This document shows, one piece after another, positions 3,847-27,645 of a stretch of 64,000 nucleotides of DNA; position 1 is the first letter of the stretch, and each line of letters begins with the position of its first letter. Position numbers and translations under genes: made by a program. The stretch spans positions 744,001-808,000 of the forward strand of contig JANSYK010000002.1 in NCBI GenBank assembly GCA_024742485.1, written 5' to 3'. Source of the stretch: Alphaproteobacteria bacterium. GTDB taxonomy: Bacteria > Pseudomonadota > Alphaproteobacteria > Rhizobiales > Rhizobiaceae. Under the pieces are notes generated by a model. That model did no database searches. It saw only the letters and a program-made list of their open reading frames with translations, and had not been told where the DNA came from.

Positions 3847-4974
3847 TCAAATCTTGACGTCCCACGCCCGGTAGCCATAGACCCAGTCGGCGTCGCCGCC
3901 CTTTTTGAGCCACTCATTGCCGCGGGAGGCGCGCTGGATCTGCGCTGTGCGGGTTTGCCGGGCCGCTTCGTAGCGTCGGAGCGCCGCCTCGACGGCATCG
4001 GGACCGACCCCTGCGAGACAACGGGCAAGAACCACCGCGTCTTCAATGGCCTGGCCAGCACCCTGCGCCATGAACGGCGTCATCGGATGGGCTGCGTCAC
4101 CCAACAGTGTGACGCGTCCTTTCGACCATCGGGGCATCGGTTCACGCACATAGAGCGCCGACTTTGTAACGTCGCTGCAGGCGGCAAGCAGGGCGCGGGC
4201 CTTGGGATGGAAATCCGCATAGGCCTCCCGCAATTCCTGAACATCACCGGGCGATGTCCAGCTTTCCTCCAGCCAGTCATCCTGCGGCGTCGTCGCGAAA
4301 ACAAAGATCTCACGGCCGCCGCTCAAAGGGAATGTCACGATCTGGCGGCTGGGTTCCGGTCCCCACCATTTGGTGAAGGAGCCGACATCGGAAAGGCCCT
4401 CCGCCGCCTCAATCGGAAACGTGGCACGGTAGGAAACGACACCCGTAAATTCCGGTGATTCAGGGCCGAACACCGACGTTCTGACAGCGGAATGAATGCC
4501 ATCCGCACCGATCAACACATCGAAAGACATGCGATCGCCGTCAGCAAACTCCAGAAAGACGGTGTTTTCATCCTCGGACACGGAACGCCCCTGCCTGCCC
4601 ATGGCAAATACGGAGCCGTCCAGACGCTCTTCCAGCGCCTTGAGCAAATCCGCCCGATGCACGGTCAGCTGTGGTGCACCATATTTTTCGTCTGCGGTGT
4701 CGGACATGGCGAGCCGGGAGGTTTCCTCTCCGGTGTCCCACATGCGACTGATGCGAAAATCCGGGCGGGCGGAAACTGCGCGTAGCGCGTTGCCAACACC
4801 GAGACCGTCTGCGGCATGCACCGCATTGGGCGTGAGATTGACGTCGGCGCCGACCCGCGTGAATCGGGCTGTCTGTTCAAACACCGTTACATCATGACCG
4901 AATTGCCGCAAGGCAATGGCCGCCGACAGGCCGCCGACGCCGCCGCCATTGATTGCGATCTTCAACTTGTCCAT
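3847..4974 (-). CDS. FAD-dependent aromatic monooxygenase, NicC/salicylate hydroxylase-like
   Basis: A 375-residue flavoprotein hydroxylase of the PHBH superfamily. The FAD dinucleotide fold is NGGGVGGLSAA near residue 9, followed by the DG region (VLIGADGIHSAVR) and the second FAD motif GDAAHPMTPFMAQGAGQAIEDA. The C-terminal DADWVYGY and the central KWW-GPE segment resemble 6-hydroxynicotinate 3-monooxygenase (NicC), which hydroxylates and decarboxylates. It is the last gene of the 13-gene operon, six bases after the aldehyde dehydrogenase gene. It probably hydroxylates an aromatic or N-heteroaromatic acid using NAD(P)H; the true substrate is unknown. Confidence 0.8.
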   Translation of the reverse strand: MDKLKIAINGGGVGGLSAAIALRQFGHDVTVFEQTARFTRVGADVNLTPNAVHAADGLGVGNALRAVSARPDFRISRMWDTGEETSRLAMSDTADEKYGAPQLTVHRADLLKALEERLDGSVFAMGRQGRSVSEDENTVFLEFADGDRMSFDVLIGADGIHSAVRTSVFGPESPEFTGVVSYRATFPIEAAEGLSDVGSFTKWWGPEPSRQIVTFPLSGGREIFVFATTPQDDWLEESWTSPGDVQELREAYADFHPKARALLAACSDVTKSALYVREPMPRWSKGRVTLLGDAAHPMTPFMAQGAGQAIEDAVVLARCLAGVGPDAVEAALRRYEAARQTRTAQIQRASRGNEWLKKGGDADWVYGYRAWDVKI

Positions 4975-4980
4975 CGTGGC

Positions 4981-6507: not shown

Positions 6508-6517
6508 GATGGCGCGC

Positions 6518-7351
6518 TCAAATCGCCACGGGTGCGGTGCGGCGTATTACTTCGCGCACCAGGCTGTAGACCGTTGGCAGGGATGTTTTCGGATTGGCCG
6601 GGGAGGGTTTCCCCTCCACGCGGATCGAGACCGTCGCTGCTGAGGATGTCACCTCGATCTGGTGAATATTGGCCGTAACGTCCGGATCTGCGATCAACCG
6701 CACACGGGTATCGTCGAACCCGGCACCGGCAAGGGCGATCGTCGCCGCCGTGTTGGCGTTTTTTGGGTAGTCGGCCGATGCCTGCCGCGCTGATCCTTCA
6801 TAGAAGACGGCAGCCTCATTCAGAGCGGAAAGATCGATGGTGTCTTCAGCCGGCGTGCCCTTCCACGATGCCGGTGGTTTTCGCGATGTGTAGGTCACCT
6901 CGCTGATGTCGGCGTGGCGCATGCCGGCAAGAATATCGATACCGCCCACAGCACCGGCCGGAATGGTCAGTTGGCTACCTGCTTCGCGTGCTGCATCCTG
7001 AAGACGCTGACAGAGTGACGGGTCATTCAACGCCCCGGTGGAGGCGATCACCAGGTCAATGCCGCTCGACAGAACCTCCTGTGCATTGTCAATAACAGCC
7101 TGATGTCCGGCGCATTCGATGACCAGGTCCGGCTCAGCGGAAACCAGATCGCCAATCGTGCCGACACAGTCGAATTCGCGAGCCGTTCCCGTTGCCGTGC
7201 TTTCCAGCAGGCCCAGCCTGCCGTTTTCGGTTCCGGGACGGACCAAAAGGACAATCCCGTCCAATGGCTCTTCAAGTGTACTAGCCAGCACGCCCAGCAA
7301 TTCCTGTGCAATGCTCCCAAATCCGATGATGCCAAGGCGTTTGAGCATCAT
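6518..7351 (-). CDS. L-aspartate dehydrogenase-like protein (NadX family)
   Basis: A 277-residue protein with an N-terminal GFGSIAQ Rossmann motif (near 10-16), the ECAGHQAV segment, the PAGAVGGID loop and the C-terminal YPKNANTAATIALAG ... ADPDVTANIHQIEV block. That block is the signature of aspartate dehydrogenases and holds the conserved catalytic His. Characterised members interconvert L-aspartate and iminoaspartate/oxaloacetate with NAD(P). A housekeeping NAD-biosynthesis role is unlikely, because the gene sits deep inside a catabolic operon and overlaps the TPP-enzyme gene by four bases (7348-7351). It may handle an amino- or imino-dicarboxylate intermediate of the pathway; that is inference. 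Confidence 0.78.
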   Translation of the reverse strand: MMLKRLGIIGFGSIAQELLGVLASTLEEPLDGIVLLVRPGTENGRLGLLESTATGTAREFDCVGTIGDLVSAEPDLVIECAGHQAVIDNAQEVLSSGIDLVIASTGALNDPSLCQRLQDAAREAGSQLTIPAGAVGGIDILAGMRHADISEVTYTSRKPPASWKGTPAEDTIDLSALNEAAVFYEGSARQASADYPKNANTAATIALAGAGFDDTRVRLIADPDVTANIHQIEVTSSAATVSIRVEGKPSPANPKTSLPTVYSLVREVIRRTAPVAI

Positions 7352-9021
7352 GTAGCGCGCCCCGCCGCACCGGCCGGCGGACCGCCGAACGCCTCTCCAA
7401 AGGGGCCGATGGCCTTCATGTCGATCTCGATCAATACGGGTCCGGACCGTTCCAACGCACCATCCAGGGCCGTCTCGAAGTCGGCGACGTCGCCAATCTT
7501 TTCATGGGTCAGGCCGACCGCCGTGCAAAGCGAGCCGAAATCCGGTGTCTTGAGCGCCGAGTAGACCCGTCGCCCGTCATACTGGGCATCCTGAATGTTT
7601 TCGATGACGCCATAGGCCTCATCATTCATCAGGATGTAGACAATGTCGGCCTTTTCCTCGACCGCCGTGATCAGTTCCGCAAGCCCAAGCTGTGCACCGC
7701 CATCGCCGACCAGTCCGACAACCTTGTTTTCGCCTTCGACGAGACCGGCACCGATGCCCATGGCAAGGCCCTGTCCAATCCCGCCACCAAGTGCGTGCAC
7801 ACCGTGATGTGGTTCGGCGATCTGCACGTAACGGTTGCCGAAGGTGGAGTTGGCGATGGTGACATCGCGCACGAAAGGGTGGCGCCCCGCAGCGACGCGC
7901 TGCTGCAACACATCGGCAATGACGCGATAGGGGCCGAGCACATCGCGCAACCGTCCTTCTCCCTTGACGCGGGCAATCGCGAATTCATGCCTGAAGGCTT
8001 CATCCACCTCGAGGGATTTCGGCAGGCAATCCAGCAGCCGCTGTAGCGTATCGGTTGCATCGCCGTGAATGAAGCTGTCGACCGCATAGTTGCGCCCGCC
8101 CTGGGCGGCGTCACAGTCGATCTGGACCAGCGGTGCCGGCAGCGCCATGCGATTGTCGCGTGTCTCGTTGCCCCGCAGCCGCGACCCGACCACGATCATC
8201 AGATCCGCAGCTTCGTAAAGCGCCATGGCCTCCGGCGTCATGTTGAAGGCGCCAAGCGTCGCCGGGTGATCCTCATCCACGCTGGCCCGTCCATTGGTGC
8301 TCGTGACCGCGCAAAAACCCCTTTCGACCAGTTCATTCGCCTGGGCTTTGGCCTTGTTTGCACCGCCTCCCAGCCAGAGCACCGGCCGTTTCGCGGCTTT
8401 GACGATTGCAGACAGTCGTTCGATTTCACTCTGCGGCGCATGGATGCTTGCCAGCGCGGGGACGGATTGCGGAGCAGCGCGGGGGACTTTGAGCCGCTGG
8501 ACATCAACCGGTATCTCCAGACTGACCGGTCCGCTGGGGGCGCTGAGCGCGGCTGATGCGGCGGCCGACAGCACGGAATGAACGGCAGCCGGTTCCCACA
8601 GACGGAAATAGGACTTGGAAATCGCCTTCAGCATATCCGCCTGTTTCGGCACATCATGGATCGCGGCGCGATCGCGGTCCATGAACTCGCGGTCGACCTG
8701 GGTTGTGATATGCAGCACCGGCGAACCGGCTGTCAGCGCTTCGACCTGTGCCCCGGCCGCATTCCCGGCCGCGGTCCCCGTCGAGGTCAGCACCACCCCG
8801 AGGCCACGCGAAACCCGCGCATAGGCGTCCGCCATGTTCATGGCGCCTGCTTCTCCGCGCGCCGGGACGAAACGAATACGGCCCTGACGCGCAATGGCGT
8901 CGATGATGGGCATGTTGTGGATCGAAATGACACCGAAGATCGTCGCAACGCCGATATCGGCCAGATGACCGGCAATGGCATCGCCAACCGTTTCGATTTG
9001 TGCTGCCGCGTCCTGTTTCAT
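7348..9021 (-). CDS. Thiamine diphosphate-dependent decarboxylase/lyase, acetolactate synthase family
   Basis: The start is placed at ATG 9021 (557 residues) because an earlier in-frame start at 9231 would overlap the upstream SDR gene by almost 200 bases. The fold is visible in order: a PYR domain with the ThDP-activating Glu in ARGEAGAMNMADAYAR (about residue 57), a central domain with LWLGGGANKA, and a PP domain with the GDGG...ND ThDP/Mg motif (VGDGGAQLGL ... ILMNDEAYG). Relatives are benzoylformate decarboxylase, acetolactate synthase and oxoacid decarboxylases. In this operon, oxoacid decarboxylation to an aldehyde for the neighbouring ALDH is the simplest idea. Confidence 0.82.
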   Translation of the reverse strand: MKQDAAAQIETVGDAIAGHLADIGVATIFGVISIHNMPIIDAIARQGRIRFVPARGEAGAMNMADAYARVSRGLGVVLTSTGTAAGNAAGAQVEALTAGSPVLHITTQVDREFMDRDRAAIHDVPKQADMLKAISKSYFRLWEPAAVHSVLSAAASAALSAPSGPVSLEIPVDVQRLKVPRAAPQSVPALASIHAPQSEIERLSAIVKAAKRPVLWLGGGANKAKAQANELVERGFCAVTSTNGRASVDEDHPATLGAFNMTPEAMALYEAADLMIVVGSRLRGNETRDNRMALPAPLVQIDCDAAQGGRNYAVDSFIHGDATDTLQRLLDCLPKSLEVDEAFRHEFAIARVKGEGRLRDVLGPYRVIADVLQQRVAAGRHPFVRDVTIANSTFGNRYVQIAEPHHGVHALGGGIGQGLAMGIGAGLVEGENKVVGLVGDGGAQLGLAELITAVEEKADIVYILMNDEAYGVIENIQDAQYDGRRVYSALKTPDFGSLCTAVGLTHEKIGDVADFETALDGALERSGPVLIEIDMKAIGPFGEAFGGPPAGAAGRAT

Positions 9022-9034
9022 CGCACTGTCCTGC

Positions 9035-9826
9035 TCATACAAATCTCGAAACACCGCCGGAAAGCTCGAGTCTGGCACCTGTGATATAGCTGGCAGCCGG
9101 CGAGCCAAGAAAAACGATGGCTCGTGCCGCCTCTTCGGGCTCGCCGAACCGGCCAAGCGGAATGTTCTTGGACAGGGCCTGCTCGCGAAACCAGTCCTGC
9201 CGGGATTGGTTCTGGTCGGGTCGCGCCTCAAAGCGCCGCTCCCACTGCCCCGAAATCACCACACCGAGAAGCAGGGAATTCACGCGAATGTCGGGTGCCA
9301 GTTCCACGGCCAGGCTTTTCAGGAGGTTTTGTACCCCTGCGCGTGCCGCCGATGTACAGACCATGTGTATCTCGGGCTGATAGGCAAGCAATGAATTGAC
9401 GCCGACGATGGCCCCGCAATCGCTGCTTTGCAGCATCGGTTGAAAAGCCCGGGTCGGATAGATCTGGCTAAAGAACTTCAGATCCAGTTCGGTGCGCCAG
9501 GCTTCGTCGCTGGTGTCGGCAAATGTCGAAACCCGTCCCTGACCTGCATTGTTGATCAATAGATCCGCACCACCGAACGTGTCCTCGACCTCTCCGGCGA
9601 AAGCTGCCATTTCTTCTGCGTCCAGAACGGAACAGGCGCGGGCCAGGATGGCCTGTGCGCCAAAGCGCTCCGCCAACCTGTCGCGAACCGAATCCAGCCG
9701 ATCTGCATTGCGGGCGCACAACGCCACCCTGCAGCCTTCCTCCAGCAACAGGCTGACCGTTGCCAGGCCGATCCCTGATGACCCGCCGGTCACCACCGCT
9801 GTTTTGCCGGTAAGGCCAAGGTCCAA
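9035..9826 (-). CDS. SDR-family protein lacking the YxxxK catalytic pair
   Basis: A 263-residue short-chain dehydrogenase fold: TGGSSGIG cofactor motif (about 13-20), NNAG motif (about 89-92), and the C-terminal GRFGEPEEAARAIVFLGSPAASYITG block. At the usual Tyr-x-x-x-Lys position the sequence reads MVCTSAARAG, so both the Tyr and the Lys are replaced. This is known in a divergent SDR subgroup and means the reaction may not be a standard alcohol oxidation. A TTG start (9826) is preceded by GGAGG lying inside the last codons of the VOC dioxygenase gene, four bases away, so translation is probably coupled. Confidence 0.78.
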   Translation of the reverse strand: MDLGLTGKTAVVTGGSSGIGLATVSLLLEEGCRVALCARNADRLDSVRDRLAERFGAQAILARACSVLDAEEMAAFAGEVEDTFGGADLLINNAGQGRVSTFADTSDEAWRTELDLKFFSQIYPTRAFQPMLQSSDCGAIVGVNSLLAYQPEIHMVCTSAARAGVQNLLKSLAVELAPDIRVNSLLLGVVISGQWERRFEARPDQNQSRQDWFREQALSKNIPLGRFGEPEEAARAIVFLGSPAASYITGARLELSGGVSRFV

Positions 9827-9830
9827 GGGT

Positions 9831-10748
9831 TCAGGCCTCCGCTTCTGTCCGCCAGCCGCGATCGGGGCGGCCCAGCATCACGGCGCGCATGGCGGGAGTC
9901 GGCGGTCCGGCCGTCATCCAGCGATCACTTTTTTCGGGATCACCCCATGGCCATTCCTGGGCAACATGCGTTGCTTCGTCGATCTGCTGCAATTCGGTGG
10001 TGAATTCGATCACGAATCCGGATGGTGAAACGAAATAGGCAAAGGGGTTGTTTCCCGGCCCATGCCTGCCGGGTCCCCAGCTTGGAACCTGTCCCATTTG
10101 TTTCAGGCGGCCGATTCCGCGCATGAAGCCGTCAATGTCCGGCATTTCGAAAGCCACATGATTGGCGCTGGCATGGGCATTTTTGAACAAACCGATCGAA
10201 TGATGATCCGTGCTGCATCGAAGAAACGACATCTGATCGACGTAATAGTCGCTGAGACGAAAGCCGAGCGTGTCGGTGTAGAAAGCCTCGGTCCTTTGCA
10301 GGTCGGGCGTGTTGAGCACAACGTGAGAGACCTTGACCGGCATGGCGTGCACGGGCTCTGTATCGGTATTTTCCTCAACGTCGCACACGATGCGCAGCTT
10401 GCGATTGTCGGGATCCAGCAACGAGAATCCGAAACCGCCTCCGGGTGTGTCAAACGCGTGAGGTTCTTCAAGGATTGCAACGTCGTGGTCACGCAATCTC
10501 GCAAAAAGCGCGTCGAGCCGGTCGCGGCTGGTCATGCCGAAATTGATATAATCGATGCCAAAATCATCGCCATCGCTCAGACCGTATATGAAGGGTTCCC
10601 TGCCGGTCCCGCGCAGATAGATTGTTCCGTCATCCCGGTGCGCGACCGCAAGCCCCCAGGTCTGCTCGTAGAAGGCGACGCTGTCTGTCATGCCGGGTGC
10701 ACGCATCACGATGCCACGCAGAAAATCAACGCCCAATGCTTCGCTCAT
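9831..10748 (-). CDS. Extradiol-type (VOC/glyoxalase fold) dioxygenase
   Basis: A 305-residue two-domain vicinal-oxygen-chelate protein. The N-terminal repeat (about 8-122) has lost metal ligands; the C-terminal repeat (about 138-252) shows a plausible Fe(II) triad H142 (SHVVLNT), H197 (NHVAFEM) and E248 (GFVIEFT). The arrangement matches type I extradiol ring-cleavage dioxygenases that open catechol-like rings between adjacent carbons. GGGAGG precedes ATG 10748. The start overlaps the IclR gene stop (10745-10748) and the SDR gene follows after four bases. Hydrolysis of its product by the operon's alpha/beta hydrolase would be a standard meta-cleavage sequence. Confidence 0.82.
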   Translation of the reverse strand: MSEALGVDFLRGIVMRAPGMTDSVAFYEQTWGLAVAHRDDGTIYLRGTGREPFIYGLSDGDDFGIDYINFGMTSRDRLDALFARLRDHDVAILEEPHAFDTPGGGFGFSLLDPDNRKLRIVCDVEENTDTEPVHAMPVKVSHVVLNTPDLQRTEAFYTDTLGFRLSDYYVDQMSFLRCSTDHHSIGLFKNAHASANHVAFEMPDIDGFMRGIGRLKQMGQVPSWGPGRHGPGNNPFAYFVSPSGFVIEFTTELQQIDEATHVAQEWPWGDPEKSDRWMTAGPPTPAMRAVMLGRPDRGWRTEAEA

Positions 10749-11560
10749 AATGACCTCCCGGTCGCCTGATGGGTTGCCGACATGTGGCCAAGCTGGGTCG
10801 AAATGGCCTTGCCGGCGGCACTGATGGCGGAAAATATTTCGTCTCGCCGTCCCTGATCCGCCGCGAAGTGATGATCCGGTCCGGTGACGTTGATCGCACC
10901 GGCGAAATCACTGGCATTGTCTCGAATGACGACGGCACAGGAACCAATACCCTCTTCGAAATTACCGACGCTCCACGCGGCGCCGATCGCCCGGTCCTCC
11001 GCAAGCTGTGCCTGAAGCTGTTCCAGCGATGTGGCGGTCTTGTCGGTTGAAGCCGGCAGGTCGGCGCCGCCGATCAGATTTTCAACGGACGCCGGTTCCA
11101 TATGGGCAAGGATGATCCGGCCGATCGTTGTTGCGTGGGCCGGCAGCCGGCTTCCGACCCGGACATTGCTGACCAGATGCAGGTTCGGGGTTTCCCGAAC
11201 CAGATAGACGATGCTGCGATCTTCCAAAACGCCGAGATGCGCCGACAGGCCGAGATCGGCGGCCAATTGTCTGAGAACCGGTTGCGACACCTGAACAATG
11301 TCCCGTGAGAAAACAGCGCCGGCGGCCAGTGTCACCAGACCGGTGCCAAGCCGAAAACCGCCGCCGTCCTCTGTCCGCTCGATCATCCGTTCATCAAGCA
11401 GGGTGTGGAGCAGCCGCAAAAGGGTCGTGCGATTGATCCCGACATCCTTCGCGGCCTTGCTGGTATTGGCGCAATTGTGGCCGTCACCGATATAGTGCAG
11501 CAGCTTGATGGCCCGCTGCACGGGAGGGACGCTGTAACTGGCTTTTCCGTTTCCGATCAT
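10745..11560 (-). CDS. IclR-family transcriptional regulator
   Basis: The start is set at ATG 11560, two bases after the hydrolase stop, giving 271 residues; the longer in-frame extension to 11677 would overlap the hydrolase. An N-terminal winged HTH (about 8-75; AKDVGINRTTLLRLLHTLLDE) is followed by an IclR effector domain (about 90-260) with the characteristic ARTIGR-like segment HATTIGRIILAH and SVGNFEEGIGSCAVVIRD. It lies inside the catabolic operon, so its level should follow pathway expression. It is the best candidate to bind the two 25-bp palindromes at 16835-16859 and 20110-20134, since it is the only regulator with a recognised DNA-binding ligand domain in the island. Confidence 0.88.
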   Translation of the reverse strand: MIGNGKASYSVPPVQRAIKLLHYIGDGHNCANTSKAAKDVGINRTTLLRLLHTLLDERMIERTEDGGGFRLGTGLVTLAAGAVFSRDIVQVSQPVLRQLAADLGLSAHLGVLEDRSIVYLVRETPNLHLVSNVRVGSRLPAHATTIGRIILAHMEPASVENLIGGADLPASTDKTATSLEQLQAQLAEDRAIGAAWSVGNFEEGIGSCAVVIRDNASDFAGAINVTGPDHHFAADQGRRDEIFSAISAAGKAISTQLGHMSATHQATGRSL

Positions 11561-11562
11561 CG

Positions 11563-12408
11563 TCAGACATTTTCCAGTTTCGGTTGCAGGCGCACGACAA
11601 AGTCGCGAAGCGCCTGTGCAACGGCCTCCGGCCGCTGCTGATGCACGATATGTCCGGCATCGTCGATTTCGAGCCATTCATGGGTGAGGTCGGACGCATG
11701 GGTCGACAGGGCCTGATGTGCCTGGAGGCTCTGTTCAGGCGGGGTGATCACATCGTCGCGGCCGACCAGCACGAGGCTGGCAACAGACAATTGCCCTACC
11801 GAAGCGGCGAGGTGACCCTTGCTCAAGGCATGAACCGCCTGGCCGTAACCGGTCGGATCAATACGGCTCATGGCGGCGATCGCATCGGCCAGAACGTCCG
11901 GTTGGGCATCGGGCCGCACCATCAGTCTGGGCGCGCGCTGCTCCGCAAAGGCCCGGGCACCCAGCCGGGCAAGCGCGGCTAGACGATCAGCGGCCTTGTC
12001 CGGCAGCGCCTCGCCCTGATCGATGCCGTACCCTTCTGCACAGGCCATCAGCACCAGCCCGGAGACCCGTTCCGGGTGCCTTTGCGCATAGGCGGCAGCG
12101 ATCAGGGTTCCGAGCGAATGGCCAACAAGGATCAGCGGGCCGATACCCAGGGCCTCGACGACCTGTTCCAGCCGTTCCGCATAATCAGTGGCATCGGGTT
12201 CAGCCGGCGCCAGCGCTCCGGAGCCCCCATAACCCGGTGCGTTCCAGACGAGGATGTCCCAATCGGTCGGAAGATAAGGGAGCAACCGGTTGAAGGATGT
12301 GGCATCGGAGCCGATGCCATGAAGCATGACCACATGCGGGCCGCTTCCCCGCCGGTGCCGGTATTCGATGCCGCATGTTTCCAGATAGCGCATGTCGGAA
12401 TCGCTCAT
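11563..12408 (-). CDS. Alpha/beta hydrolase, meta-cleavage product hydrolase-like
   Basis: A 281-residue alpha/beta-hydrolase fold enzyme. The oxyanion-hole motif is HGIGSDATSF, the nucleophile elbow is GHSLGTL, the acid lies in VGRDDVITPPEQS and the catalytic His in IDDAGHIVHQQRPE. Meta-cleavage product hydrolases cut a C-C bond in ring-opened catechols, which would pair with the extradiol-type dioxygenase downstream. Its ATG (12408) overlaps the stop of the SDR gene by four bases, and the IclR gene starts two bases after its stop. An esterase or enol-lactone hydrolase role cannot be excluded. Confidence 0.82.
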   Translation of the reverse strand: MSDSDMRYLETCGIEYRHRRGSGPHVVMLHGIGSDATSFNRLLPYLPTDWDILVWNAPGYGGSGALAPAEPDATDYAERLEQVVEALGIGPLILVGHSLGTLIAAAYAQRHPERVSGLVLMACAEGYGIDQGEALPDKAADRLAALARLGARAFAEQRAPRLMVRPDAQPDVLADAIAAMSRIDPTGYGQAVHALSKGHLAASVGQLSVASLVLVGRDDVITPPEQSLQAHQALSTHASDLTHEWLEIDDAGHIVHQQRPEAVAQALRDFVVRLQPKLENV

Positions 12409-13154
12409 GAGAACACAAAGCCCCGATTGGTCGGGAGCACCTGTCCGGAAAGGGTCAGGGCGGCTTCACCAAGCAGGAACGCAATCGTGCCAACCACATC
12501 TTCAGGTGCCTGCGGGCCCGGCACGGCGCTGTTGTCGGCGTAGTGGGCGTGGCGTTCCGCCGGTACATATTCGGTTGACTCGGTGGTCAGGATGCCCGGC
12601 GCCACGGCCGTGATCCCGATACCGTCAGGACCCAGTTCCCTGGCCAGCGACCGTGTCATGGCCATGACGGCGCCTTTGCTGGCAACATAGGAGAGCAGGT
12701 TCGGAGCGCCCCACAGGGCCGTATCCGACGCCAGATTGACGACCCGGCCGGAGCCTGACTGAATCAGAAGCGGCGCACAGGCGCGCACCATCAGCCAGAC
12801 ACTGCGGATATTGACATCCATCACCCGGTCCCAGGTCTCGATGTCGATTTCATCAAACCGCTTGCCGCCAATGCCGGTGGCGATGGCGCCATTGTTGACG
12901 AGACCATGCAGGCGACCTTCCCGGTCCGCGATGTCCTTCGCCAGCGCTGCAATGGACGCCGGGTCGGCAAGGTCGAGACCGACGAAGCGCGCTGAACCGC
13001 CTTCGGATTCGATCTGCGCGACGGTCTCACTGCCTCCATCTTCTTCGATATCCGCCGCAATCACCGTCGCGCCGCCGGCCGCACAGGCAAGCGCAGTCAG
13101 GCGCCCGAGACCGCGGGCAGAGCCGGTAACCAGAATGATGCGGCCGTCGAGCAC
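12405..13154 (-). CDS. Short-chain dehydrogenase/reductase with intact catalytic residues
   Basis: A 249-residue classical SDR: TGSARGLG cofactor motif (about 10-17), NNGA motif (about 88-91), the catalytic Ser in VNLASDTA, and YVASK supplying Tyr and Lys. It would oxidise or reduce a secondary alcohol or cis-diol with NAD(P). A ring-cis-dihydrodiol dehydrogenase acting after the Rieske oxygenase encoded at 18759 is attractive in this context but is inference. It begins ten bases after the cupin gene and overlaps the hydrolase gene by four bases. Unlike the other SDR of the operon, it keeps the complete active site. Confidence 0.85.
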   Translation of the reverse strand: MLDGRIILVTGSARGLGRLTALACAAGGATVIAADIEEDGGSETVAQIESEGGSARFVGLDLADPASIAALAKDIADREGRLHGLVNNGAIATGIGGKRFDEIDIETWDRVMDVNIRSVWLMVRACAPLLIQSGSGRVVNLASDTALWGAPNLLSYVASKGAVMAMTRSLARELGPDGIGITAVAPGILTTESTEYVPAERHAHYADNSAVPGPQAPEDVVGTIAFLLGEAALTLSGQVLPTNRGFVFS

Positions 13155-13164
13155 GGGGTGGTTC

Positions 13165-13716
13165 CTATTTCTTGTCGCGTTTGATGCCGGCCAGCGGGTG
13201 GTCCGGCGGATAGGTGGGTGTCACTGGCTTGGGGTTGCCGATCATCACACACATCAGCGCCTCTTCCATGCCCTCATTGACGAGGCCCCGATAGACACCG
13301 GGCGGTACGGAAATCAGATCACGCTCGTTAAGCACCGTTTCGACCCGCTCGCCGAGATGATCGACAATGATGCGAATGTTGCGTCCCTTCAGGATAAAGA
13401 ACACCTCTTCGGCATCCGTGTGCAGATGCGCCGGACCTTCGCATCCCGCCGGCAGCACCATGGTGGAAAAGGTGAAATTCTCTGCCTGGATGACATTGGA
13501 GTCACTGGCAACCCCGGTGGCGCCGGTGCCCATGTAGCGCATCTGGGCGCGCTTGTATTTCGGGTCGTAGTCAGCCTGGAATTTCAGCGCGTTCCAATCG
13601 AGTTTGCGCGTGTCGTATCGTGCAATGCGGCTCTCGACCCAACTTTCCAGCGTCTTGCCTTCGGGCACGACAACATCTTCCGGCTTCGTCTCGGGGATAT
13701 TTGCCTGCATGTTCAT
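13165..13716 (-). CDS. Cupin-domain protein of the catabolic operon
   Basis: A 183-residue protein with a C-terminal cupin barrel (about 75-165). The first cupin motif is visible as H97, H99 and a Glu at 103/104 (GPAHLHTDAEEVFF). The second motif, SVPPGVYRGLVN, lacks the usual metal-binding His, so metal binding would be incomplete or supplied otherwise. The N-terminal segment (ETKPEDVVVPEGKTLESWVESRIARYDTRKLDWNAL, split here by eye into two helices) has no function I recognise. It follows the transporter permease by three bases and precedes the SDR by ten. An isomerase, a dioxygenase accessory or a small-molecule binder are all possible. Confidence 0.72.
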   Translation of the reverse strand: MNMQANIPETKPEDVVVPEGKTLESWVESRIARYDTRKLDWNALKFQADYDPKYKRAQMRYMGTGATGVASDSNVIQAENFTFSTMVLPAGCEGPAHLHTDAEEVFFILKGRNIRIIVDHLGERVETVLNERDLISVPPGVYRGLVNEGMEEALMCVMIGNPKPVTPTYPPDHPLAGIKRDKK

Positions 13717-13719
13717 CTC

Positions 13720-14481
13720 TCAATTCTCCGATTTTGGAATGTAGTGAAGAAGCCGCGTCTCGGCGTAGGTGACGGCCGAATAAAGGACGATGCCTATGAT
13801 GGTCAGAACGGCGATGGCATTGAAGACCATGGCGGCATTGGCCTGTCCTTCGCCGTAGGAAATCAGGTAGCCGAGCCCGGTATTGCCGCCGACAAGCTCG
13901 CCAACCGTGACACCGATCACGGCCAGCGTCGAGCCGATACGCAGACCGGCCAGCAACGCTGGCAGTGTCGATGGAAATTCGACCTTGAGGAAGATTTCGA
14001 AGCGGCTCAGATTATAGGCCCGGGCCAGATTGATCAGGTCGCGGTCAACCGTTTTCATGGCCTGCAGCACGTTGACCAGGATCGGGAAAAACACGATCAG
14101 GATTGTCACCAGCAGCTTCGGCCAGAACGTATAGCCGAACCACATGATGAACAGCGGTGCAAAGGCCACTTTCGGCGCGATCTGCAGGGCAAGGATATAG
14201 GGCGACAGGACCTGCTCCCAGAACCGTGACATGCCCAGCATGTAGCCGATAAAGGCACCGAGCAGGCTGCCGATCGCAAATCCGACCAATGTCATCACGA
14301 AGGTCGAGATGGTGTGGTTGACAAGGTTGTCGAGGCGGAACATGCGCAGCAATTCCGCAAAACACTGACTGGCCGTCGGAATGATATAGCGCGGAATTCC
14401 AAACAGCGGCGGCAGGATCTCCCACAGAGCCAGGAAGGCCAGTGCCACCAGTATCGTCGTGATGAGAATGCTGTTCTTCAT
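13720..14481 (-). CDS. ABC transporter permease, NitT/TauT (SsuC-like) family
   Basis: A 253-residue inner-membrane permease with about six hydrophobic segments; the first spans residues 5-25. The EAA-type loop reads NLARAYNLSRFEIFLKVEFPSTLPALLAGLRIG, recognisable as the cytoplasmic contact with the ATPase. Members of this family import nitrate, taurine, sulfonates or aromatic acids such as phthalate. It forms the transporter with the binding protein at 14577 and the ATPase at 15974. It is separated from the binding-protein gene by 95 bases holding a strong hairpin and is followed after three bases by the cupin gene. Confidence 0.88.
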   Translation of the reverse strand: MKNSILITTILVALAFLALWEILPPLFGIPRYIIPTASQCFAELLRMFRLDNLVNHTISTFVMTLVGFAIGSLLGAFIGYMLGMSRFWEQVLSPYILALQIAPKVAFAPLFIMWFGYTFWPKLLVTILIVFFPILVNVLQAMKTVDRDLINLARAYNLSRFEIFLKVEFPSTLPALLAGLRIGSTLAVIGVTVGELVGGNTGLGYLISYGEGQANAAMVFNAIAVLTIIGIVLYSAVTYAETRLLHYIPKSEN

Positions 14482-14534
14482 CGGGCCGCTTGCTCGAGGG
14501 TGTTGACGGGATCAGCCATTGGTCGGCTCATTTG

Positions 14535-14563
14535 GGGAGCCGGCAGCATTCCTGCCGGCTCCC
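14535..14563 (-). terminator. Strong stem-loop between binding-protein and permease genes
   Basis: A perfect 12-bp stem, GGGAGCCGGCAG (14535-14546) pairing with CTGCCGGCTCCC (14552-14563), around a 5-base loop. It lies just after the binding-protein stop on the minus strand and has no U-run. It is probably an attenuator or mRNA-stabilising hairpin that keeps binding protein more abundant than permease. Confidence 0.6.
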
Positions 14564-14576
14564 GATTGCATGTAGC

Positions 14577-15551
14577 CTATTGGGCAACAAACTCGTTGGT
14601 ATAGGTGTCGCCGATCGGTACGGCCTCGCGAACGATCTCGTTGGCGACATAGAAGTCCTGGACGGCCTTCAGGCGGCTTTCATCGAACTTGCCGAAATTG
14701 TCGACATCGGACCCATAAACCAGTCGAACATAGTCGCGCATGATGCCTTCCATGATCTTTTCCTTGCCGGCGTGCTGGGGCACGGCGGCAACATAGTCTT
14801 TCGATGCCTGTTCGGGGTCCGCGATGATGTCCTTGTAGCCCTTGACAACAGCACCCACGAAGCCGCCGACCACGTCCGGACGGTTCTTGATGGTGTCTTC
14901 CGACGTCAGGATGGCCTGGGCCATGGCCGGAAAGATCTCGTTGATGGGCGTGACCTCAACCTCGACGCCGGCACCACGGATAGCCGCAGTCCATTCCGGC
15001 ACACCGGAGATCGCCTGAAGGTCGCCGGAAATCATCAGCTTGATCATTCCGCCGGGGCCGACGGCCTGGATATTGACATCATCCTTGCTGATCCCCGCAT
15101 CGGCGAGCACGGCAAGAAGATTGTAGTAGGTCGTATCCTTGAAGGAGAGAACGCCGACGGATTTACCCTTGAGGTCGGCAATGGAGTTGATCCCGGCATC
15201 CTTGCGCCAGGTGATCTGTGTCAGCGCTTCCGAACCGAGCAGTGCCACACCCTTGACCGCCAGGCCGTTGGCGCGAACGATCAGCGGTGTATCGCCAATG
15301 CCGCCGCCAAGATCGGCATTGCCTACGGCAACCTGCTTGGCCACATCGGCGCCGCCCTTGCCCACCTGAAAGGTGACATCGAGACCGGCTTCATCGAAAT
15401 ATCCCTTTGCCTTGGCCAATTGAAACGGCGCAAAGGCCGGCAGGAAATCCGGCGCGGGGAAGAGATAGGTCATTTTCTCGGCCGCGAACGCGCTCGCAGC
15501 CATCAGCGAAAGGCCAAAGGCCATCGCCAGTTTCAAACTTGTCTTTGTCAT
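14577..15551 (-). CDS. ABC transporter periplasmic binding protein, NMT1/SsuA-like
   Basis: A 324-residue exported protein. Residues 1-23 form a signal peptide ending ASAFAAE. The body is of the NMT1/SsuA type: GKGGADVAKQVAVGNADLGGG, then the KSVGVLSFKDTTYYNLLAVLADAGI hinge region, then VVGGFVGAVVKGYKD. This class delivers sulfonates, pyrimidine precursors or aromatic acids to TauT-type permeases. Its RBS GGGAG lies between the gene and the inserted 405-bp inverted-repeat element that begins 22 bases upstream (15573). The ligand is probably the growth substrate of the adjacent pathway. Confidence 0.88.
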   Translation of the reverse strand: MTKTSLKLAMAFGLSLMAASAFAAEKMTYLFPAPDFLPAFAPFQLAKAKGYFDEAGLDVTFQVGKGGADVAKQVAVGNADLGGGIGDTPLIVRANGLAVKGVALLGSEALTQITWRKDAGINSIADLKGKSVGVLSFKDTTYYNLLAVLADAGISKDDVNIQAVGPGGMIKLMISGDLQAISGVPEWTAAIRGAGVEVEVTPINEIFPAMAQAILTSEDTIKNRPDVVGGFVGAVVKGYKDIIADPEQASKDYVAAVPQHAGKEKIMEGIMRDYVRLVYGSDVDNFGKFDESRLKAVQDFYVANEIVREAVPIGDTYTNEFVAQ

Positions 15552-15572
15552 GGTGTATCTCCCTGGTTTTTG

Positions 15573-15977
15573 TTAGAGCGAAGGGTTCTTAGATTGGTTC
15601 ATTTGACCACTCATTTTTGTTTCCTGCCTAGAGCAATTCAGGTTTTGACGGAATCGGCAAAGCCTGAATGCACCAACAAAATTAAAAGCCGACACCGTTG
15701 TCACGTTTCTGACAAAACGTGAAACGGTCTTGGCGAACCGGCCGCCGTGGTGTTCCTCCACCACAAGGCCGGTTCAACGACGGCAGGGGGCAAAAATGAA
15801 CGGCCCATGTTGCTACACGTTTCCAAAGTCTTCTCCCTCTCTGGGGTGGGGTAAATCGGCCCATCGGCCGCGTTGTGCCGCTTGCCCGATGCTCTGCATC
15901 GCGCTGTGCGACGCGCCTTGCCGAATGAACCGATTTCCCTCCATCAAATGATCCAATCTAAGCGCCCTTCGCTCTAA
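15573..15977. mobile_element. MITE-like element, copy 1 (405 bp)
   Basis: The element is bounded by 34-bp terminal inverted repeats (15573-15606 and 15944-15977) that begin TTAGAGCGAAGGG and differ at three positions. It carries an internal 41-base hairpin (15735-15775) with GAACCGGCC/GGCCGGTTC arms. A second copy, inverted in the window, lies at 58247-58550. Copy 1 has about 101 extra bases (15631-15731). It encodes no plausible protein; small reading frames are artefacts of the repeat. It splits the transporter ATPase gene from the binding-protein gene, and its right TIR supplies the ATPase stop codon TAG. A TA target duplication, as in IS630/mariner-type MITEs, is possible. Confidence 0.85.
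15631..15731. repeat. Extra 101-bp segment inside MITE copy 1, with two inverted repeats
   Basis: This stretch is absent from copy 2. It contains ATTCAGGTTTTG/CAAAGCCTGAAT (15636-15647 and 15658-15669, one mismatch) and the perfect pair TCACGTTT/AAACGTGA (15701-15708 and 15715-15722). It is either an insertion into copy 1 or a deletion from copy 2. Confidence 0.6.
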
Positions 15978-16753
15978 TTCACGACCTGTCGGTCCTGCAG
16001 TTTCAGCAGATCGAACATGTGGCTGATATATTCAGTCACACGAGGATGCTGGCGGCGGGCGGTCGGGTTGCCGCGATCTGGAATATCGACCTTGATTTCC
16101 TCGATAACCCGGCCGGGTCTTTCGCTTAGAACGAGAATCCTGTCAGCCATGAACACGGCCTCTGCCAGGTCATGGGTGATCAGCAGCGTTGTGATCTTCT
16201 CGTCTTCGATTGTTTCGGCAAAATTCTTCTGAATGATGATTTTCGTCTGCGCGTCCAGAGCGGAAAACGGCTCGTCCAGCAAAATGACTTCGGGATCGAT
16301 TGCCAGGGTCCGAGCCAGTGCGGCCCGCTGGCGCATGCCGCCAGACAACTGATAGGGGTAGTAGTCTCCGAATCCACCCAACTGACATTTTTCAAGCTGC
16401 AGATGCGCACGCTCTCGGCACTCCTTGCGGGAAAAGCCGCGCGATTCCAGTCCGAATGCGACATTGGCCTCGATCTTGCGCCAGGGCAGGAGCAAATCCT
16501 TTTGAAGCATGAAGCCGACATGGGAATTGGGACCCGAAACGATGTCACCTGAAACCAGAACTTCTCCCTCGGTGGGCTGATACAGACCCGCTGTCATGTT
16601 CAGCATGGTGCTCTTGCCGCAGCCGGACGGTCCAACGACCGCGACAAACTCCGCTTCGTCCGTTTTGAAAGTGATGTCCTTGAGCGCTGTCAGTGCCGTG
16701 CCGGTACCGTTTTGCCCGAAGCCTTTTGTTACCGAGCGAAATTCAAGCGCCAT
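15974..16753 (-). CDS. ABC transporter ATP-binding protein, NitT/TauT (SsuB-like) family
   Basis: A 259-residue ATPase with Walker A GPSGCGKST (41-49), Q-loop FMLQKDLLLPW, signature LSGGMRQR, Walker B VILLDEPFSALD and the switch His in ITHD. It energises import by the permease at 13720. It is the first gene of the long minus-strand operon, downstream of the palindromic operator at 16835-16859. Its last codon and stop (AAT TAG) run into the MITE terminal repeat TTAGAGCG, so the present C-terminus may differ by a few residues from the ancestral one. Confidence 0.9.
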   Translation of the reverse strand: MALEFRSVTKGFGQNGTGTALTALKDITFKTDEAEFVAVVGPSGCGKSTMLNMTAGLYQPTEGEVLVSGDIVSGPNSHVGFMLQKDLLLPWRKIEANVAFGLESRGFSRKECRERAHLQLEKCQLGGFGDYYPYQLSGGMRQRAALARTLAIDPEVILLDEPFSALDAQTKIIIQKNFAETIEDEKITTLLITHDLAEAVFMADRILVLSERPGRVIEEIKVDIPDRGNPTARRQHPRVTEYISHMFDLLKLQDRQVVN

Positions 16754-16834
16754 GTCTGACCTCGCCGCAAACGCTGTGCTCTTTGATAACAGAAGATTCG
16801 ATTTCGATCATTCAGCCACTGTTAGAATAAGTTC

Positions 16835-16859
16835 AAATATGAACATAGTGTTCTTATTT
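16835..16859. promoter_or_regulatory. 25-bp palindromic operator, copy 1 (probable IclR-family site)
   Basis: Arms AAATATGAACA (16835-16845) and TGTTCTTATTT (16849-16859) around TAG form an inverted repeat with one mismatch. The site lies between the divergent ATPase gene (start 16753) and the flavin monooxygenase gene (start 16919). An almost identical site with perfect arms lies before the Rieske operon at 20110-20134, and GTTC precedes both. Assignment to the IclR regulator encoded at 10745 is inference from genetic context. Confidence 0.75.
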
Positions 16860-16886
16860 TGACAATAACTGTGCGCTCCCTATGAT
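16859..16886 (+). promoter_or_regulatory. Sigma70-type promoter for the second flavin monooxygenase
   Basis: TTGACA (16859-16864), a 16-base spacer, then TATGAT (16881-16886), 33 bases before the gene start. The -35 box shares its first base with the right arm of the palindrome, so a protein bound there would touch RNA polymerase. Confidence 0.55.
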
Positions 16887-16918
16887 GCAAGTTCGAATTT
16901 CAACGGAGACACTTTGCG

Positions 16919-18106
16919 GTGTTGAATCAGCAAAAATCGATCCTCATCGTAGGCGGCGGTATCTCTGGCCTCGTCCTAGCGATTGCGTTGCGGCGGAAGC
17001 GGATCGATGTGACGGTCGTGGAGATTTCGCCGGAGTGGACACCGAAGGGCTCGGGCATTCACCTCTATTCCAATGCGCTCCGTGCACTCGATTCCATCGG
17101 ACTTGCGCAGGAGATCGTGGCGGCTGGATCGGCCCACGACTTTTATGATTATTCCGACCCGCGCGATGAACACCGGGTCCGCGTTCGCTATCCGCGTCTG
17201 GCCGGAGAGGAACTGCCGGCCCTGGCGACCATCACCCGACAGGCACTCCACACGATTCTGGTCACATCTGCGCAACAGGCCGGTGCCCGGATTCGTCTTG
17301 CAACGACCGTTGCGGACATGACGGAAGGTTCCGGTTCTGAAGATGGTGACGTACTGATTACGTTGAGCAATGGCCAGACCGAACGCCATGATCTGATCGT
17401 GGCCGCTGACGGTATCTATTCCCCGATGCGCGAAAAATATCTGAGTCGAAGCAATCTCATTTACTCCGGCCAGGCGATCATGCGTGCGGTTCTGCCGCGT
17501 CATCCTGATTCGGTCGATCCGAAAATCATGTTTGCCGGTGCCGGCCAGATGTTCGGCATCGTGCCTGTCAGCGGCGACTCCGTCTATCTGATTGCCGGCT
17601 TCGCTGAATCTGAGCACAAGCGCTACGATCGCGACTTGCTGCATACTCTTCTGCAGGACAGGTTTCGCCCGGTATTTGGCGGGCTGGCGCCCTGGTATCA
17701 CGACCGGATCACTGATGCGGGCCAAGTGACCTACACCTCCATCGAATTGGTTGATCAACCGCCGCCATGGCACCACGGACGCATGATCTTCATGGGCGAT
17801 GCGGTCCATGCTTCGCCGCCCTATCTGGCGCAGGGTGCGGCCATGGCGATCGAGGATGCGATCGTGCTGGCGGAGCTGATCGGCTCAGATTTGCCGTTTG
17901 ACCGGATCGTCGAAGACTACATGGCGCGCCGCGTGCCGCGGGCTGAATTCATCAAGAAGACGTCCCTGGAGCGAAACCGGCTGCGCTACCAGGGCGGCAC
18001 ATATGAAAGTGCTGACGGTACAATCAGCCCCCGCATGCAGCATCTGCGCAATACGGCCCAACCGTTGATCGATGAGCTCTATATGACCCTGGCTGAGCCG
18101 ATCTGA
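16919..18106 (+). CDS. FAD-dependent monooxygenase of the catabolic island
   Basis: A 395-residue PHBH-fold flavoprotein: VGGGISGLVLAIAL (near 10-23) for FAD binding, VVAADGIYSPMRE as the DG motif, and GDAVHASPPYLAQGAAMAIEDAIVLAEL as the second FAD motif. The start is GTG 16919 with GGAG about ten bases upstream. It is transcribed divergently from the 13-gene operon with the palindromic operator in between, so both are likely co-regulated. It is clearly different from the NicC-like hydroxylase at 3847, so the pathway seems to use two flavin hydroxylations as well as a Rieske step. Substrate unknown. Confidence 0.83.
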   Translation: MLNQQKSILIVGGGISGLVLAIALRRKRIDVTVVEISPEWTPKGSGIHLYSNALRALDSIGLAQEIVAAGSAHDFYDYSDPRDEHRVRVRYPRLAGEELPALATITRQALHTILVTSAQQAGARIRLATTVADMTEGSGSEDGDVLITLSNGQTERHDLIVAADGIYSPMREKYLSRSNLIYSGQAIMRAVLPRHPDSVDPKIMFAGAGQMFGIVPVSGDSVYLIAGFAESEHKRYDRDLLHTLLQDRFRPVFGGLAPWYHDRITDAGQVTYTSIELVDQPPPWHHGRMIFMGDAVHASPPYLAQGAAMAIEDAIVLAELIGSDLPFDRIVEDYMARRVPRAEFIKKTSLERNRLRYQGGTYESADGTISPRMQHLRNTAQPLIDELYMTLAEPI

Positions 18107-18120
18107 ATCGTCCCATCGGT

Positions 18121-18762
18121 TCAGGTCCAGCTATACCCGTAGCTGGCGATGCTTCTGGCCAGCGCATTGGCGTTGCGGTCGCCCGCAGTCGCGCCGCGTA
18201 GCCACGTGCGGCCATGCACCTCAAGGCCGCGTAAATTGCATCGGCCATCAAAGCGCGTGTCGGCCCACCACAACCCGCCCATGCATTCCGACTGTTCCAG
18301 GGAAGCGGTGCCGAGAAATCGGGCGTGGTCTGCCGAAAAACTGCCGGAGACCTGCATGTGGTCCAGAAACGCCGCTGCTCGGAACGTGGCTTCGTCAAAA
18401 CACCCGATGCCGCGAAATTCCGCTTTTGAAAAAATGGCATCTCGCTGAAACGCTGCGCCGTCAAACCGCGCATCATGAGCAAACAGAACGTTTGAAAAAT
18501 CGACACCCGACAGAAACCGGCACCGGCGAAACCATGTCAGCCCGTCAAACTGTGCCCCGCGCGCAATGACCGGATCATTGAACACCGCACCAGTCAGATC
18601 AAAGCCGCAGATCGCCATGCCGGAGAGGTCGAGTGTTCCGAGAATTGCTGCGCCGGCCAGATCGTGTTTCTCGCCGGCCCTGAAGGGCTGACCAAGCAAT
18701 TCCCTTAGCGCACCTGCCTCGATGGATTGCGGTGCACTGCGATCTGGTCGATCCATGGTCAA
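18121..18762 (-). CDS. Pentapeptide-repeat-like protein linked to the Rieske oxygenase
   Basis: A 213-residue protein built of degenerate five-residue repeats, with Phe, Leu or Met at the centre and Ala/Gly/Ser before it (for example DLAGA AILGT LDLSG, then ARFDG AAFQR DAIFS KAEFR). The run extends from about residue 33 to 190 and should fold into a right-handed quadrilateral beta-helix. No signal peptide or transmembrane helix is visible. The start codon overlaps the Rieske gene stop by four bases (18759-18762), so it is co-translated with it. No function is known for such a partner; scaffolding or stabilisation of the oxygenase is speculation. Confidence 0.7.
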   Translation of the reverse strand: MTMDRPDRSAPQSIEAGALRELLGQPFRAGEKHDLAGAAILGTLDLSGMAICGFDLTGAVFNDPVIARGAQFDGLTWFRRCRFLSGVDFSNVLFAHDARFDGAAFQRDAIFSKAEFRGIGCFDEATFRAAAFLDHMQVSGSFSADHARFLGTASLEQSECMGGLWWADTRFDGRCNLRGLEVHGRTWLRGATAGDRNANALARSIASYGYSWT

Positions 18763-19802
18763 CCGGTTTCCCGGTGCGCCATCTGCTCGCTCGCTTCCAG
18801 GTGGGCCTTGGCTTTGCGAACCATCATGCGGCGCAGTTGCGATACGCCGGAATCATGCTGATAAAGCATTTCGCGCTTGCGCGCATCGACGGGGATCGAC
18901 TCCAGCATCACGCGATCCTGTTCGAGTACATGCCAATGGCGGTCTTCCAGAAATGCGCGATACAGGAACCGCCAGGAATCGGCGGCCAGCCCGCTGACCT
19001 TCCGGCATCGCCAGAAGAAACTGTGGTGGGTGTCCCGGTCAATTGGTGTTGCAAAGCCGATGATCCGAAACGGACCGCCCGGCCCGGCGCCATCCGGATA
19101 GGGGATATCAAGCCGCATGAACATCATGTCGCCATTGCCGACAATATGAGAATAGTCGAAATTCACGCCCTGCTGCGACACCCGTTCGATGATGAAACCG
19201 TCACCGGTTTTGGTCAGTTTCATTGTGTCCTGCTTGCTGCCATAGGCAAGCGTGAAGCTGTCGGCGTGCAGGTAACTGGCATGCATCGGGTCGGCGCCAT
19301 TGTCGAGGCTGAGACGGTAGCTGCAATCCCACTGGGTCATGCAGCAAAAGACCTCCCATTCGCCATTAATGAGTTCTTCCGGTGGATTGAATGGTGTTGG
19401 CTCCGGTTGATCCGCGCTGGGCAGATAGATGAACACGGCATCGCCGGCCTCTTCGGCGGCATAACTCGTGAGCGGCCGGCGCCCCTCGAGCGCGCATTCG
19501 GGCATGGCTGGTACCCGTACGATCGTTCCGGTGCCGTCAACGGTGACCCCATGATACCGGCAGGCCAGATTGTCCTCATGGACTTCCCCAAGTGAGAGTT
19601 TCGCCCCACGATGCGGACAATAGTCCTCGACGCAATGAACCTTTCCCTTCGTGTCGCGCCACAGGACAAGTCTCTCACCTGCAATCAGCCGGGCGAAAGG
19701 TTTGTTGGCCTTGACCTGGACCGATTTGCACACCGGGTGCCACAATCCGCCGAGACCCTTGTTGAGATAGTCATCGACTGCGTCGTGAATGGCTTGCGTC
19801 AT
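18759..19802 (-). CDS. Rieske non-haem iron oxygenase, alpha-type subunit
   Basis: A 347-residue ring-hydroxylating or demethylating oxygenase. The Rieske [2Fe-2S] ligands are C62, H64, C81 and H84 (CPHRG ... CRYHG). The mononuclear iron ligands are visible as H174 and H179 in DNGADPMHASYLH; the bridging acidic residue is D171 or D167, and the third ligand probably lies in the DRHWHVLEQDR stretch. The size and single-subunit form resemble the vanillate demethylase/phthalate dioxygenase (group I) class. No reductase gene is nearby, so electrons must come from a reductase encoded elsewhere. It is the middle gene of a three-gene operon behind operator copy 2. Confidence 0.87.
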   Translation of the reverse strand: MTQAIHDAVDDYLNKGLGGLWHPVCKSVQVKANKPFARLIAGERLVLWRDTKGKVHCVEDYCPHRGAKLSLGEVHEDNLACRYHGVTVDGTGTIVRVPAMPECALEGRRPLTSYAAEEAGDAVFIYLPSADQPEPTPFNPPEELINGEWEVFCCMTQWDCSYRLSLDNGADPMHASYLHADSFTLAYGSKQDTMKLTKTGDGFIIERVSQQGVNFDYSHIVGNGDMMFMRLDIPYPDGAGPGGPFRIIGFATPIDRDTHHSFFWRCRKVSGLAADSWRFLYRAFLEDRHWHVLEQDRVMLESIPVDARKREMLYQHDSGVSQLRRMMVRKAKAHLEASEQMAHRETG

Positions 19803-19828
19803 CTTTTTTCTCCTGCAGGCCCAATTTG

Positions 19829-20089
19829 TCAGGCACCGATCCCATCGGCATCATAGGCAGCGTCATGCGATGCATTGATGGCCTTCAGCTCATTTTCGAA
19901 ATTGGCCAGTGTCCACGGCCCTGTCTCACCCGATGGCCGGCGCGTACCAAGCGCGTTCAGTTCAGCCACAACCGCGGAAAAATCATGGGTTCCCTTGGCG
20001 TAAATCGACTCCAGTGCCGATGCCAGGTCCCGTTCGGTCTCCGTCAACGGGCGACCCAATGATTGGTTTTTCAGTGCCGGATCCTGCAT
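19829..20089 (-). CDS. Small recombinase-like helix-turn-helix protein
   Basis: The start is taken at ATG 20089, with GAGG eight bases upstream, giving 86 residues; a TTG at 20101 is less likely. The central segment (YAKGTHDFSAVVAELNALG, then RRPSGETGPWTLANFENELKAIN) resembles the small HTH module found after the catalytic domain of large serine recombinases, where it reads GxxTxxGxxWT. Similar stand-alone proteins occur beside Rieske oxygenase genes. There is no catalytic recombinase domain. It is the first gene of the Rieske operon, 26 bases before the oxygenase. It may bind DNA or may be an oxygenase accessory; the role is unknown. Confidence 0.65.
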   Translation of the reverse strand: MQDPALKNQSLGRPLTETERDLASALESIYAKGTHDFSAVVAELNALGTRRPSGETGPWTLANFENELKAINASHDAAYDADGIGA

Positions 20090-20109
20090 GGCAAGCCTCA
20101 ATATTGTTC

Positions 20110-20134
20110 AAATAAGAACACATTGTTCTTATTT
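20110..20134. promoter_or_regulatory. 25-bp palindromic operator, copy 2 (perfect arms)
   Basis: AAATAAGAACA (20110-20120) and TGTTCTTATTT (20124-20134) are perfectly complementary around CAT. It matches copy 1 at 16835-16859 except for one arm base and the spacer. It lies 21 bases upstream of ATG 20089. Confidence 0.75.
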
Positions 20135-20149
20135 GCTATATTCGCGAAG

Positions 20150-20155
20150 ATTATA
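20150..20155 (-). promoter_or_regulatory. Candidate -10 box of the Rieske operon
   Basis: TATAAT is read on the minus strand (20155 to 20150). No good -35 box is seen 17 bases upstream. If this is the -10, the palindrome at 20110-20134 would lie about 15-40 bases downstream of it, a blocking position for a repressor. Confidence 0.35.
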
Positions 20156-27635: not shown

Positions 27636-27645
27636 GTCAGTGTCC

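Follow-up and report, generated by a model that had tools for sequence, protein, structure and literature searches.

The window analysed here is a 64,000-nucleotide stretch of contig JANSYK010000002.1 (positions 744,001 to 808,000) from an alphaproteobacterium of the family Rhizobiaceae, and its subject is a pair of closely similar inverted repeats, designated sites 1 and 2, within a catabolic gene island. The island comprises a run of 13 co-directional genes, a divergent gene for an FAD-dependent monooxygenase (FMO2) and a short gene run that includes a Rieske/VanA-type oxygenase. Read from 16753 downward, the 13-gene run encodes an ABC ATPase, a substrate-binding protein, a permease, a cupin, an SDR protein, an alpha/beta hydrolase and an IclR-family regulator, followed by a VOC (extradiol-dioxygenase-like) protein, a second SDR protein, a thiamine pyrophosphate enzyme, an aspartate dehydrogenase, an aldehyde dehydrogenase and a second FAD monooxygenase, FMO1. 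A sequence-only reading of this DNA had described the repeats as 25-bp palindromes that link these genes, with the IclR protein as the natural candidate to bind them.

Both palindromes are present, one at 16835-16859 (AAATATGAACATAGTGTTCTTATTT), which departs from a perfect dyad by a single mismatch, and the other at 20110-20134 (AAATAAGAACACATTGTTCTTATTT), a perfect dyad; each is directly preceded by GTTC (16831-16834 and 20106-20109), as the sequence-only reading had it. With up to three mismatches the 25-bp palindrome occurs at just these two places in the window and in none of 100 shuffles, and a slightly looser pattern at the same tolerance finds only the same two places in the whole genome of the organism (6,867,895 bases; reversed-pattern control, 0), in agreement with the earlier judgement that two such sites would hardly arise by chance. 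The palindrome did not hold up as the conserved unit: of 91 related loci, L033 alone has it at up to three mismatches, and 3/91 have it at up to four. What is conserved is GTTC-W6-GAAC-N5-GTTC (W denoting A or T), three boxes with a 19-bp repeat within 33 bp plus a weak fourth box; the isolated dyad is thus real but forms part of a three-box tandem, and the preceding GTTC belongs to the site core. Site 1 retains three of the four bases of box 4 (TGAC), and site 2 consists of three boxes.

Related clusters are found on plasmids of Nitratireductor, Pseudosulfitobacter, Paracoccus and Vibrio nigripulchritudo, more distant cluster forms occur in Cupriavidus, Caballeronia and Acinetobacter, and further relatives carry related clusters as well. 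Eighty slices (1.41 Mb), picked by IclR similarity from 556 confirmed, were examined; 73 encode an IclR with an NRTT- or NRVT-type recognition helix, as in the window protein (GINRTTLLRLL), and seven encode another type. A symmetric consensus, GTTC-W6-GAAC-N5-GTTC-W6-GAAC, built from the window and loci L033-L035 and applied at a threshold score of 17.5, located a site in 44 of the 73 slices with the window's helix type, in 0/73 first-order Markov shuffles, in 0/73 for each of eight control words and in 0/7 slices with another helix type. The motif search across relatives that the sequence-only reading had suggested therefore succeeds for the three-box unit and fails for the full 25-bp palindrome. 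The shorter GTTC-W6-GAAC gave 41 matches in the 80 slices against 1, 0 and 0 in three shuffles, with none inside the mapped genes, which make up 46% of the slice bases. Conversely, TTTC-W6-GAAA occurs in three of the seven slices with another helix type and in 0/73 with that of the window, and TTTC-type repeats were also seen by eye in Acinetobacter and beside the Rieske genes of a genome (G028) that has a second IclR. Clusters that persist with another IclR helix can thus carry another repeat as well; the cases are few.

In Alpha-, Beta- and Gammaproteobacteria alike, the site recurs before the same catabolic genes and often before iclR. A set of 78 sites, drawn from 52 sequences and including 65 from the 80 slices, has the following genes no more than 350 bp away: FMO1 (39), IclR (22), HTH62 (14), ABH (11), CUP (9) and other genes (6), where one site may count for two genes. 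One locus, L056, shares a contig with L041 (Amorphus coralli) and was left out of the site-layout and spacer counts but kept in the slice counts.

The search was extended to 29 genomes with the window's IclR type, 25 behind the 29 site-less slices and four with a site (site-less slices L092, L095, L097 and L105, and also L045 and L096, were left out). A site with at most one mismatch was found in 27/29 and an exact site in 13/29, with the reversed control matching 2/29; 23 of the 25 genomes behind site-less slices carry the site at this tolerance, as do both positive-control genomes (2/2). Among genomes with another helix type, 1/7 matched and the reversed control matched 3/7. In 101 relatives of the organism, exact sites were found in four of the five genomes with an IclR ortholog and in 1/96 without; this sole match (G019), still counted, sits inside a transporter gene and is regarded as chance.

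The layout of the site is tightly constrained. Boxes 2 and 3 are conserved at 85-99% per base, box 1 at 77-86% and box 4 at 56-72% (78 sites). Across 82 sequences, the inner spacer was W6 in 55 cases, W2 in seven and W3-5 or W7-11 in none, and GAAC-N5-GTTC was counted 89 times versus 12-25 at other spacings. The tandem period is 19 nt, with 38 occurrences at +19, 20 at -19 and at most one at every other listed distance. The site is also polar. A non-IclR (catabolic) gene starts within 130 bp of 65 of the 78 sites, the other 13 being left out; among the 65, 62 have the intact 14-bp palindrome on the side toward that gene, two are reversed and one is equal. In the window the intact palindrome of site 1 is oriented toward the 13-gene run on the minus strand and that of site 2 toward the Rieske run. 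Site 1 does lie between the 13-gene run and FMO2, as first described, but its polarity assigns it mainly to the 13-gene run and to FMO2 secondarily.

The placement of site 2 before the Rieske run was likewise borne out, its proximal edge lying ~17 nt upstream of the ATG at 20089. The promoter-like sequence of FMO2, correctly noted in the sequence-only reading as touching site 1, shares one base with the palindrome, and its -35-like hexamer overlaps box 4; a third promoter-like sequence listed in the same scan (plus strand, 16783-16811) was left unused. Near site 2, TGTATAAT at 20157-20150 on the minus strand was picked by eye as promoter-like and, if a promoter element, would put the site just downstream of the transcription start. 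The 14-bp pattern at up to two mismatches gave seven matches in the window versus 2.2 expected by chance, among them a possible weak extra site near the expected transcription start of FMO2. A terminator was also considered for the sites, and none was found in 16700-16960 or 20050-20400. The distance from site centre to estimated start codon is 45 nt or less in 34/71 cases (window sites included), which leaves little space for a promoter downstream of the site. Judged by the site positions, the mode of action would be repression that is relieved by a compound and that blocks promoters or early elongation.

Table 1. Positions of the genes, predicted operators and other elements of the island in window coordinates.
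Feature	Position	Strand	Basis or remarks
13 co-directional genes	3847..16753	-	Pfam
IclR-family regulator	10745..11560	-	Pfam IclR_C 8.7e-35, HTH_IclR 2.6e-06
MITE-like repeat element	15573-15977 (405 bp)		Between ABC ATPase gene (gene 1) and substrate-binding protein gene (gene 2)
Operator site 1 (predicted)	16831..16863	-	GTTC 16831-16834, GAAC 16841-16844, GTTC 16850-16853, weak box 4 TGAC 16860-16863
Promoter-like sequence, 13-gene run	16836..16865	-	TTGTCA-18-CATATT, 9/12 consensus; largely inside site 1; consensus match only
Promoter-like sequence, FMO2	16859..16886	+	TTGACA-16-TATGAT, 11/12 consensus; consensus match only
Possible weak extra 14-bp site, GTTCGAATTTCAAC	16891..16904	+	2 mismatches
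Divergent FAD-dependent monooxygenase FMO2	16919..18106	+	Pfam FAD_binding_3
Rieske run	18121..20089	-	Pfam
Pentapeptide-repeat protein	18121-18762	-	Pfam
Rieske/VanA-type oxygenase	18759-19802	-	Pfam
HTH_62 protein, first in Rieske run	19829-20089	-	Pfam
Operator site 2 (predicted)	20106..20138	-	GTTC 20106-20109, GAAC 20116-20119, GTTC 20125-20128, box 4 lost (GCTA 20135-20138)

The window IclR carries both domains of the family above their cut-offs (HTH_IclR, 27.5 bits against 22; IclR_C, 120.3 bits against 24). Its open reading frame was listed as 10745-11677 (310 aa) and in that form overlaps the preceding gene; a methionine at residue 40 stands just before the aligned region, and the resulting start at 11560, which gives 271 aa, is therefore likelier. 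The 13 genes among which it lies had been called a single operon. They are indeed co-directional, but the 405-bp repeat element, which resembles a miniature inverted-repeat transposable element (MITE), lies between genes 1 and 2 and may split this putative operon. The element has 34-nt terminal inverted repeats (91%), and its inner unit of ~105 bp has at least ~39 copies elsewhere in the genome at 81-95% identity (40 of 229 candidates scored). A second copy of the right part of the element, 92% identical, lies at 58249-58494 of the window (contig position 802249-802494). On the far side of the Rieske run, 20343-29712 holds an adjacent sugar-type cluster of AP_endonuc_2 proteins, Gfo/Idh/MocA oxidoreductases, an ABC transporter and a LacI regulator; GTTC-W6-GAAC was not found in it at up to two mismatches.

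The predicted sites resemble operators described for the IclR family. In the comparative survey of Suvorova and Gelfand (2021; PMC8222616), which covers 181 IclR groups, 32 groups have three-box sites and 94 have tandem sites with a separation of 18-22 nt, and the window sites agree with these in their half sites, the alternation of three boxes, the 19-bp centre distance and the nearness to start codons, as well as in their recurrence near the regulator and pathway genes across genomes. The same source gives the motifs GKTYCRYW3-4RYGRAMC (group 1) and TGRAACAN1-2TGTTYCA (group 2). Group 1 has 7-8 nt between GTYC and GRAC where the present site has 6 (55 sequences at W6, none at W7 or W8), and the site was accordingly not filed as group 1 proper. 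In our own alignment, the central GAACA-N3-TGTTC can be fitted to group 2, with N1, only by placing the last C of the half site in register and accepting T for the first G. With the PcaU, PobR and HmgR operators of that survey the site shares GTTC-type half sites, an extra third box and aromatic catabolic targets; the PcaU consensus GTTCGATWATCGMAC has GTTC-N7, whereas here GTTC-N6-GAAC has an all-A/T centre without CG. Polarity toward the target gene, as seen here, is not mentioned in the available portions of the survey.

As to the pathway, the closest solved relatives of FMO1, the conserved monooxygenase of the cluster, are FAD hydroxylases of the 6-hydroxynicotinate 3-monooxygenase type (2.6e-79), a likeness that suggests, at most, an aromatic or pyridine carboxylate as the inducer. 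Riboflavin catabolism (PMC12746152) has partly similar chemistry but employs a P450 and a xanthine oxidase, and Pfam scans of the cluster proteins showed neither. Literature searches on this gene set, on homarine and on the HTH_62 name found no paper about this cluster, and six 14-mers had no literal match in the literature texts searched. In L039, an Acinetobacter baumannii plasmid record, positions 10239-23428 hold a related catabolic cluster whose IclR differs. Its genes possibly correspond, judged by name alone, to A1S_0956-0958 (L-aspartate dehydrogenase, betaine-aldehyde dehydrogenase and acetolactate synthase), which appear in an expression table of a paper on growth with mucin (PMC5757984).

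Taken as a whole, these comparisons lead us to propose, with a probability of about 0.8, that sites 1 and 2 are operators of the IclR protein encoded at 10745-11560, which would act as a repressor released by an aromatic compound. The element of this proposal that concerns binding is well supported: the earlier suggestion that the repeats are shared operators of the island's IclR gains from the association between site and helix type, the recurrence before the same target genes and often iclR, and the agreement with the published box layout. The sites, their layout, conservation and polarity, and the association with the IclR type are established here by comparison, and IclR is the predicted binder. 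Several observations weigh against the proposal. At threshold, 29 of the 73 slices of this helix type lack a site, and two genomes behind such slices (G106 and G129) have none genome-wide at up to one mismatch. The loci were gathered by IclR similarity and include many related Rhodobacteraceae, so that the counts are not independent. With one mismatch allowed, 15/101 relatives match, including 11 of the 96 that lack an ortholog, and the reversed control also matches 15/101, so that single one-mismatch matches mean little. One relative (G047) has an IclR ortholog but no site, its IclR lying near a contig end. Among 385 genomes of the class, where an IclR ortholog at E 1e-50 is present in the organism's own genome only, the exact pattern occurs in that genome and in one other, without an ortholog (reversed control, 5/385). 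The promoter scan around site 2 gave no consensus match, the start codons of homologs are extrapolated, and two of the 65 sites have the opposite polarity, one an HTH62 site and the other window site 1 when read toward FMO2.

The same IclR might bind the same sites as an inducer-dependent activator, perhaps repressing only its own transcription. The nearest named subfamily of the window IclR is PcaR/PcaU/PobR (TIGR02431, its best NCBIfam model), to which it scores 134.6 bits, below the subfamily cut-off of 284.75. That subfamily contains activators (PcaU and PobR), a further point against repression. The three-box layout is like that of PcaU and PobR, and site 1 abuts the -35-like hexamer of FMO2, a position that activators also use. 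We consider activation rather unlikely, however, since site 2 stands so close to its start codon, as do many homologous sites, that a downstream promoter is hardly possible, and site 1 covers the promoter-like sequence of the 13-gene run.

Other binders fit the comparisons less well. The HTH_62 protein, which is small and 'recombinase-like' and may be an accessory protein, is encoded directly behind site 2, and co-occurrence could not separate it from IclR as the main candidate: its family is present in 29/31 searched genomes with this IclR type (L082 left out), and in 15 of the 16 site-searched genomes (of 29) in which the gene was located, the site lies within ~300 bp. That it binds the sites instead of IclR is nevertheless very unlikely, for Vibrio nigripulchritudo L036 has sites before FMO1 and CUP and no HTH62 match in 30 kb, G113 has a site and no HTH62 match, and in L040 a TTTC-type repeat, with another IclR close by, precedes the HTH62 and Rieske genes while the GTTC site is at ABC transporter genes; the box layout, moreover, fits IclR sites. 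A second IclR, with a helix of the SAAFR type, is encoded in several clusters, and the organism's own genome has a further IclR at 29% identity, so that another regulator, of the IclR family or otherwise, could be supplied from elsewhere in the genome. This too is very unlikely, as the site follows the helix type of the window IclR and many slices with sites show just a relative of that protein. A chance or non-regulatory repeat, in favour of which nothing was found, can be almost dismissed in view of the shuffles and of the conservation of sequence, position and polarity across classes.

With the IclR protein as the repressor, we infer binding, the oligomer on DNA, the promoters, repression and the ligand as follows. 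One IclR dimer would occupy the 14-bp palindrome GTTC-W6-GAAC, and a second, displaced by 19 bp along the same face of the helix, would bind box 3 and, in sites that have it, box 4. Over site 1, bound IclR would cover the promoter of the 13-gene run, iclR included, giving negative autoregulation, and would touch the -35 of the divergent FMO2; at site 2 it would lie between the Rieske run's promoter and its start codon. Release, and with it the joint induction of uptake and degradation genes, may follow when the C-terminal domain of IclR binds an aromatic substrate or intermediate. As a more tentative possibility, the operator may be polar and asymmetric, with one dimer on the intact palindrome nearer the gene, another, arranged differently, on box 3, and an orientation toward the gene that selection has kept across three proteobacterial classes.

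The regulation so proposed is of a familiar kind, with a spacing variant and notable polarity. What our analysis offers is a proposed regulator, with its operator code and regulon, for a widespread set of catabolic genes that occurs in Alpha-, Beta- and Gammaproteobacteria of sea and soil; the genes behind the operator become pathway candidates, and the inducer would be whatever frees IclR from the operator. Site 1, with box 4 at three of four bases, and the three-box site 2 form, together with the polarity, a natural pair bearing on alternative IclR dimerisation. If true, the polar operator would lend comparative support to the proposed alternative dimerisation modes of IclR, in a group whose 6-nt spacer falls outside the published consensus.

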